Shown here: positions 22,383 through 42,442 of the stretch, in pieces
Layout: each line of letters starts with the position of its first letter
How positions within the stretch are numbered: the stretch's first letter is position 1
DNA from: Bacillota bacterium
GTDB lineage: Bacteria; Bacillota; DSM-12270; Thermacetogeniales; Thermacetogeniaceae
Assembly: GCA_029907475.1 (NCBI GenBank)
Contig: JARYLU010000009.1
Location: forward strand, 1 to 64,000
Length of the DNA stretch: 64,000 bases
Direction of reading: 5' to 3'
Program-made: the position numbers and the translations under genes
The notes under the pieces: model-generated
The model's input: the letters and a program-made list of their open reading frames with translations, nothing else
Told to the model about the DNA's origin: nothing
Database searches by the model: none

Positions 22383-22417
22383 ACTCTTGGTAAAAAATCA
22401 TACAAGTATTACCGGGA

Positions 22418-22621
22418 ACGCTGAATTCTCTCCACGAGAAGCGGGGGAACCAATCGTTGGGGTGAATCCCCGCACTCAAGCCGGCGCCCGTTTCCAGGCA
22501 CGAAAACACTCACGGGAACACCTTTGAAGCGCCTGGAAGCAGGGAACGGTTCCGGGAAAAGCTTGAGTGCGTGGGTAGGGTTACCTTTCAACCCGAACCC
22601 GTCAGCTAACCTCGTAAGCGT
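22418..22621 (+). promoter_or_regulatory. c-di-AMP riboswitch (ydaO-yuaA class)
   Basis: The conserved ydaO elements are all present in order: GGGGGAACCAATCGTTGGGG with TGAATC just after, and later CCGAACCCGTCAGCTAACCT with CGTAAGCG. ACGCT (22418) and AGCGT (22617) can close the outer stem. The long insert between the two conserved halves (22470-22590) can form extra pairing (GTTCCAGGC type segments). In this class c-di-AMP binding switches the downstream gene off through a terminator, which follows here at 22668. Confidence 0.93.
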
Positions 22622-22667
22622 GGGAAGGAAAGGCCAAGAAAGCTTGTTTGGTCCTGTAAGGTTTGTG

Positions 22668-38467: not shown

Positions 38468-38678
38468 CAACAAATTCCTGCGTGTCTCCTTTCCGCACTG
38501 GGAGGCGCACCCGTTTCCAGGTACACCCTAACGGTCAACCGCCGTGGCGCAGATCCTGCGCGACAGGCCGCTTGACTCGGAGAACCTTTAATTGTCTGAT
38601 GGATACATTCGACACGAATAAGGGAATTCCTGCATAAAAACTGCTTTGTGACAGCAGAATACTAAAAAAACAAACACC

Positions 38679-41131: not shown

Positions 41132-42019
41132 CTAGAAGGTTTTTTCGTATCCTAAAGAACGGAGCGCTCCCTCGTCGTCCCGCCAGCCCTTCTTCACCTT
41201 AACCCAGATATCGAGGTAGACCTGGTTCCCGAAGATTGCTTCCAGTTCCAGGCGGGCGAGCCTTCCGATCTCCTTCAGCATTTGTCCCCCTTTTCCGATC
41301 AGGATGGCCTTCTGGGAATCTCGTTCCACGTAAACCACCGCAGAAAGATACAGTACCTGGTTGGGCCGCAGTTGCATTTCTTCTACCGCGACCGCAACGG
41401 AATGGGGAACTTCTTCCCTGGTCAGCATCAGTACCTTCTCGCGGACAATTTCGCCTGCGATAAAACGCTCCGGCTGATCGGTAAGCATTTCTGGAGGATA
41501 ATAAAAGGGTCCCTCTGGGAGATTTTCAATGATGACTTTTTTGAGTTCCCCGAGATTCTCCCCGGTCAAAGCAGAAACGGGAATGACGGCCAGAAAGGCG
41601 GCCCGCCCGGAGAACCACTCGATTAAAGGGAGAAGCTCGTGTTTTTGGATCAGGTCAATTTTATTGAGGACGAGGATGACCGGTGTTTTGACCCTGCTTA
41701 ACCGGCTAAGAATATATTCTTCTCCGGATCCCGGGGGGACGGAGGCATCAACAACGTAAAGGACCAGATCTACCTCTTCCAGGGTTTTCTCGGCCACTTT
41801 TACCATGTACTCCCCCAGCTTGTGGCGGGGCTTATGGATACCGGGAGTATCCAGGAAAGCCACCTGGGCATCCCCGGTGCTGAAAACCCCTAAAATTCGG
41901 TTCCTCGTAGTCTGGGGCTTTTCGGAAACAATCGCTATCTTCCGGCCCACCATCCCGTTGAGCAGAGTTGATTTCCCTACATTAGGACGACCGACGATGC
42001 AAACAAATCCCGACTTGAT
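41132..42019 (-). CDS. era: GTPase Era, apparent ATC start
   Basis: Era binds 16S rRNA and checks 30S assembly. G1 is GRPNVGKST, switch II DTPGIHKPRHKLGEY, G4 LNKIDL, and the C-terminal KH domain includes LIGKGGQMLKEIGRLARLEL. The conserved N-terminus (KSGFVCIVGRPNVGKS) is fully coded, but between the preceding cdd stop in the same frame and that sequence there is no ATG, GTG or TTG. The codon at the expected place is ATC (42019-42017), 9 bases after AGGGGAG. The first ordinary start, ATG 41953, would delete the P-loop. Either a non-canonical start is used or there is a sequence error; with ATC the length is a standard 295. Confidence 0.9.
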   Translation of the reverse strand: MKSGFVCIVGRPNVGKSTLLNGMVGRKIAIVSEKPQTTRNRILGVFSTGDAQVAFLDTPGIHKPRHKLGEYMVKVAEKTLEEVDLVLYVVDASVPPGSGEEYILSRLSRVKTPVILVLNKIDLIQKHELLPLIEWFSGRAAFLAVIPVSALTGENLGELKKVIIENLPEGPFYYPPEMLTDQPERFIAGEIVREKVLMLTREEVPHSVAVAVEEMQLRPNQVLYLSAVVYVERDSQKAILIGKGGQMLKEIGRLARLELEAIFGNQVYLDIWVKVKKGWRDDEGALRSLGYEKTF

Positions 42020-42025
42020 ATACTT

Positions 42026-42442
42026 TCACTCCCCTGTAATCCTTTTCTCCCCTGCTTTCCCCTGCCCGGGAAAACGGAAGGCGGCGGGAAAGAGTTCCTC
42101 GAGATTTTTAACTTCTTTTTCGAAGTTATCCCCACCGCGGACAATCCGCAGCCGGGGGGCAAATTCCGCAAGACTCTGGAGACAGGCGCCGCATGGCCAG
42201 CTCGCAACCGGGGCCCAGATGGCAAGGGCCGCAAATCTGCGCACACCGGCTGCCACAGCCTTTACCAGGGCCACCCGCTCCGCGCACAGGGTCAGGCCGT
42301 AGGAGGCGTTTTCCACGTTGCAGCCCGTAAAAACGGTTCCTTCCTCGCCCAGCAAAGCTGCCCCTACCGGAAAGCGTGAGTAGGGCGCATAAGCATTTTG
42401 CGAGGCCTTTTTTGCCTGCAATAACAACTCCCGATCTTCCAT
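42026..42442 (-). CDS. cdd: Cytidine deaminase
   Basis: Homotetrameric zinc enzyme of 138 residues that deaminates cytidine and deoxycytidine. Zinc and catalytic residues are in CNVENASYGLTLCAERVA (Cys and Glu) and PCGACLQSLAEF. The stop TGA is in frame with era and six bases before its proposed start, so the two are likely translationally coupled. Confidence 0.95.
   Translation of the reverse strand: MEDRELLLQAKKASQNAYAPYSRFPVGAALLGEEGTVFTGCNVENASYGLTLCAERVALVKAVAAGVRRFAALAIWAPVASWPCGACLQSLAEFAPRLRIVRGGDNFEKEVKNLEELFPAAFRFPGQGKAGEKRITGE

Follow-up and report, generated by a model that had tools for sequence, protein, structure and literature searches.

The question raised by the 64,000-nt stretch of DNA analyzed here (positions 1 to 64,000 of the forward strand of contig JARYLU010000009.1, assembly GCA_029907475.1, from a Bacillota bacterium of the family Thermacetogeniaceae; hereafter the window) is where translation begins on era, the gene encoding the 30S assembly GTPase Era. 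The gene follows cdd (cytidine deaminase) on the minus strand, and its conserved N-terminus is encoded without any canonical start codon. We conclude, with a probability of about 90%, that Era is translated from an AUC start codon preceded by a strong, extended Shine-Dalgarno (SD) sequence held in a fixed register.

On the minus strand, positions 42036-42014 read CAGGGGAG TGA AAG TAT ATC AAG TCG, within a wider leader in which AGG ATT ACA GGG GAG precedes the TGA stop (42028-42026) of cdd (42026..42442, minus strand, from the list of open reading frames (ORFs)). After this stop the same frame continues through two codons, AAG and TAT, to the ATC at 42019-42017, then through AAG TCG GGA TTT GTT TGC ATC GTC to the P-loop codons GGT CGT CCT AAT GTA GGG AAA TCA, and thus runs on as K-Y-I-K-S-G-F-V-C-I-V-G-R-P-N-V-G-K-S into full Era. 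No in-frame ATG, GTG or TTG was found between the cdd stop and the P-loop, as the sequence-only reading had claimed, and that reading was also correct in placing the ATC 9 bases after AGGGGAG (42035-42029). This core belongs to an extended SD element, CAGGGGAGTGAA (42025..42036, minus strand), which contains the cdd stop (6 nt before the ATC) and whose predicted duplex with the anti-SD sequence (−11.5 kcal/mol) ends 5 nt from the ATC. The first ordinary in-frame start, the ATG at 41953 (41951..41953, minus strand), is codon 23, so that a protein begun there would lose the whole P-loop GRPNVGKS (codons 10-17) and with it the GTP-binding motif G1. A GTG within GAGTGA (42027..42029, minus strand) overlaps the cdd stop inside the SD, 10 nt from the ATC, and is therefore off the era frame by one and would need a +1 shift; both of these points had been anticipated from the letters alone. 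The Rfam scan returned no local element over the era start.

The frame opened by the ATC encodes a bona fide Era. The coding sequence from ATC to TAG (41132..42019, minus strand; 295 aa, with the first residue taken as Met) matched the NCBIfam model era TIGR00436 with 321 bits, above the family cut-off, and contains a G1 P-loop GTPase domain and a C-terminal KH domain, which Pfam recognized as MMR_HSR1 from residue 6 and KH_2. When compared with a sister species, the gene showed a nonsynonymous divergence (dN) of 0.053 and a synonymous divergence (dS) of 0.86 (dN/dS about 0.06), indicating strong purifying selection. A second era copy as the working one was considered and rejected: the gene is single copy in the genome, and the next matches, which scored far lower, fell in longer frames encoding other P-loop GTPases, with a Der-like tandem-GTPase frame ranking first among them.

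At each of the levels of family, order and class, the window's lineage comprises the same 20 genomes, and the 5′ end of era was covered for 17 of these, including the finished single-contig genome of Thermacetogenium phaeum (G006, 2,939,057 bases; PMC3551663). The codon preceding (K/R)-S-G-F was ATC in 4 genomes, ATT in 10 and ATA in 3, that is, ATH (H being A, C or T) in 17/17 and NTG in 0/17. In two genera, g1 (ATC, ATT and ATT) and g3 (ATA in all three), none of the 6 genomes has an in-frame ATG, GTG or TTG in the stretch from the upstream stop to the P-loop. The predicted SD:anti-SD duplex ranged from −8.6 to −14.6 kcal/mol across the 17 genomes, also where no in-frame GTG exists, and ended 5 nt before the ATH in 15 of them and 4 and 3 nt before it in the remaining two, so that the register seen in the window is the same in relatives. 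Amino-acid entropy dropped sharply at the ATH (codon 0), from more than 2 bits at each of codons −2 and −1 to near 0 from there onward. The proposal that the ATC at 42019 is the best start is thus strongly supported by the ATH found in every genome, the constant SD register, conservation that begins at the ATH and two genera without an alternative; no relative has ATG at that codon. Outside the class, an ordinary in-frame start was present in 104/104 scored era loci (9 further loci were unmatched by the motif), a count made by a coarse criterion, with the nearest ordinary start 54 codons upstream in 1 of the 104, and a listing of many loci shows ATG, GTG or TTG close by. Since g1 and g3, the genera without an alternative start, branch on either side of the class root in a tree of Era, ProC and initiation factor 3 (IF3), a start at AUU, AUC or AUA (AUH) on era is most simply ancestral in the class. 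Such a start, never AUG, GUG or UUG, would have been in place in the class ancestor already and would have been kept while its third base drifted. By sequence criteria, namely the lack of any NTG that preserves the N-terminus and the retention of both codon class and SD register, era is a conserved non-canonical (non-NTG) start gene.

Initiation might instead take place at a GTG upstream, either in frame (11 genomes) or by way of a +1 frameshift (6 genomes), in which case the ATH would be an internal Ile codon. The 11 genomes outside g1 and g3, which represent four genera, do carry an in-frame GTG at −6 or −9, joined in one genome by a TTG at −6 (positions in nt relative to the ATH), and the two genera without an ordinary in-frame start have an out-of-frame GTG at −10. 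However, the in-frame GTGs occur as GGAGTG, GAGGTG, GGGGTG or AGGTGAGTG. They and the one TTG lie within the SD or directly against it, and none is served by a suitably positioned SD, the pairing available to the GTGs being mostly weak (−1.5 to −6.2), misplaced, or 12 nt away (T. phaeum). The residues from GTG to ATH are not conserved, the genomes that would need a frameshift have no slip site in common, and in two sister species (G001 and G002) the GTG frame meets TAA after four codons, all of which makes initiation at GTG highly improbable.

Still less credible is readthrough of the cdd UGA to give a Cdd-Era fusion, an arrangement suggested by the window's own genome, where cdd and era share one frame with a single UGA between them. 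The cdd stop of the relatives is found 10 to 71 nt upstream, and because its distance to the ATH (6, 10, 15, 18, 19, 25, 28, 35, 70 and 71 nt across the genomes) and its frame vary, readthrough cannot be the common mechanism. That a sequencing or assembly error masks an ordinary start could be imagined for a draft genome of 114 contigs, but it is refuted by the same architecture, with differing third bases, in three species of this genus and three of another, separately assembled; we regard it as practically untenable. The same layout in two sister species (ATT) and in the second genus (ATA) likewise excludes the extra or missing base for which the sequence-only reading had allowed. Some points do weigh against translation from AUC as we present it: Ile is possible as an internal residue too, so that a GTG start is formally possible in the 11 genomes; the anti-SD sequence (the 3′ tail of 16S rRNA) in the duplex predictions was assumed and not taken from this genome; and the IF3 dependence of era considered below is an argument by analogy.

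On the evidence of aligned codons, AUH starts are in wider use in this class than on era alone. The start of infC, encoding IF3, is ATT after AGGAGGTG, with the 9-nt spacing seen in era, in nearly all class genomes. In six genera proC begins with ATC or ATT, and two others (g4 and g6) have ATG at the corresponding position; in the window's genome (contig and position C2:46989) this codon is ATC, and a protein begun at the first ordinary start would lack the Rossmann motif. The accD gene (C21:18034) starts at CTG, which aligns with CTG, GTG or ATG in relatives, and its zinc ribbon would be truncated by use of the first ordinary start in frame. That these codons interchange with AUG in proC and accD is good evidence for AUH and CUG serving as start codons here. 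A scan of 2.41 Mb (80%) of the genome, covering 1749 ORFs of at least 80 codons, for genes in which the first ordinary start cuts a conserved domain and a strong SD precedes AUH or CUG yielded proC (ATC) and accD (CTG) together with other probable cases: rluB (C1:69696; ATT or CTG), yacP (C11:5347, minus strand; CTG), a SpoIIM gene (C23:13005; CTG), a SAF-domain gene (C23:9516; ATC or ATA), a fliY-like gene (C4:44660, minus strand; CTG), an ARMT1-like gene (C4:112508, minus strand; CTG or ATA) and an HlyD-type gene (C21:7450, minus strand; ATT). This list is a minimum, as the codon-usage score alone missed era (about −1.8 for its short upstream stretch) and the scan is thus insensitive. Among the false leads in the first ranked list were ORFs at contig edges and, at C18:27192, a CTG inside a hairpin before an ATG start. 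ATH and CTG codons occurred 12 times after such SDs, in 10 genes, versus 3.7 expected from codon frequency, but AAG was likewise raised (5 versus 1.9), and we take the statistic as supportive, not decisive. In Listeria, fixed non-canonical starts were reported in 6 of 2265 conserved genes (PMC13068326); about ten or more such starts in 1749 ORFs looks high in comparison, with the methods differing between the two counts. In a separate observation, a recG-like frame at C2:114192 has no start near its beginning and is closely preceded, in a frame shifted by one base, by ATG AAA CTG with an SD, which could reflect a frameshift or a sequence error.

AUU, AUC and AUA are read at low efficiency by the initiator formylmethionyl-tRNA, fMet-tRNA(CAU), and are discriminated against by IF3, as at infC and, for a related kind of start, sigR (PMC5472188); Era is needed in small amounts for 30S maturation (PMC10582724). 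We propose that the AUC on era would be read by this ordinary initiator tRNA, the weak codon:anticodon match being offset by the strong, extended SD at a fixed distance. In the fetched 80% of the genome, both initiator-type tRNAs carry the anticodon CAU, and a search of this part for an initiator tRNA altered to read AUH gave none. The two initiator-type tRNA-Met(CAU) genes are themselves distinct (C3:121877-121952 and C10:3515-3590, the latter on the minus strand), one having C1:A72 and the other reading U1:U72. The IF3 of this genome is full-length and ordinary, aligning end to end with solved bacterial IF3s, and infC was detected in 17/20 class genomes, this one included. A weak start would hold Era at a low level, and if Era synthesis were IF3-sensitive like that of infC, more Era would be made whenever IF3 is titrated by free or immature 30S subunits. 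By analogy with infC, such IF3-dependent dosage control of Era is plausible.

The AUH codon on era may, however, be a neutral relic of relaxed start-codon choice in the class with no regulatory role, and we put the chances of this at about even. The similar starts in the same genome, from proC, accD, yacP and rluB to the SpoIIM, fliY-like and ARMT1-like genes and others, fit neutrality, as does the drift of the proC and accD codons between AUH or CUG and AUG or GUG. Against it, the third base of the era codon has switched at least four times between A, C and T in the 17 genomes and never to G, which hints at selection against AUG. In Staphylococcus, moreover, AUH starts with an extended SD gave about 10% of AUG expression (PMC13009471), and neutrality for an essential gene is thus not obvious. 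Selection for weakness is hinted at solely by the absence of drift to AUG in era, unlike in proC and accD; translation initiation may be a point at which Era production is deliberately throttled. A fuller account, in which AUH codons are regular, selectively kept weak starts in the class (era, infC, proC and more) and the one on era ties Era output to the IF3:30S ratio, giving feedback between subunit maturation and initiation fidelity, is offered tentatively, as a possibility that we hold to be rather less likely than its opposite.

The best reading of the comparison with known systems is that Era joins the small class of conserved non-canonical starts represented by infC, sigR and ccpN. Like era, infC has AUU, AUC or AUA after an extended SD, and in this genome it reads AGGAGGTGACACCTA-ATT with the same 9-nt spacing; its AUH starts, however, occur widely among bacteria and serve autoregulation, whereas era has ordinary starts outside the class and IF3 feedback on it is conjectural. 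Streptomyces sigR shares with era a non-NTG start, a strong conserved AGGAGGTG ribosome binding site and a codon kept across a clade (GTC/GTT) (PMC5472188), but it differs in codon class and gene, and its GTC start is IF3-repressed by experiment (PMC5472188), while IF3 repression of era is proposed by analogy. The Staphylococcus genes ccpN (AUA), cvfC1 (AUU) and citZ (AUA) likewise combine a conserved AUH with an extended SD (PMC13009471); these are regulators or metabolic genes, whereas era encodes a 30S assembly GTPase and its start is conserved class-wide. In the rnc-era coupling of gamma-proteobacteria, Era is kept low, as is proposed here, through weak or coupled initiation, and an upstream stop lies near the start in both cases (PMC10582724), but the start there is an ordinary one overlapping the rnc stop, while here the neighbor is cdd, at a spacing that differs from one relative to the next. 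The same review of Era does not mention start codons, and the literature searched, which leaves out subscription journals, yielded no description of an AUH-initiated era.

Elsewhere in the window, Rfam placed a cyclic di-AMP riboswitch (ydaO type) at 22409-22635 on the plus strand and a molybdenum/tungsten cofactor riboswitch at 38470-38594 on the minus strand. In the same genome, ARAGORN predicted a tRNA-Pyl (CUA) at C11:65673-65756, a hint of pyrrolysine use.

Few cases are known of bacterial genes that retain a non-NTG start across species. In these genomes, start-codon models restricted to ATG, GTG and TTG would miss where the products of era, proC, accD and other genes truly begin, and a ribosome-assembly GTPase with such a start class-wide suggests that start-codon strength may serve as a dosage control of 30S biogenesis.
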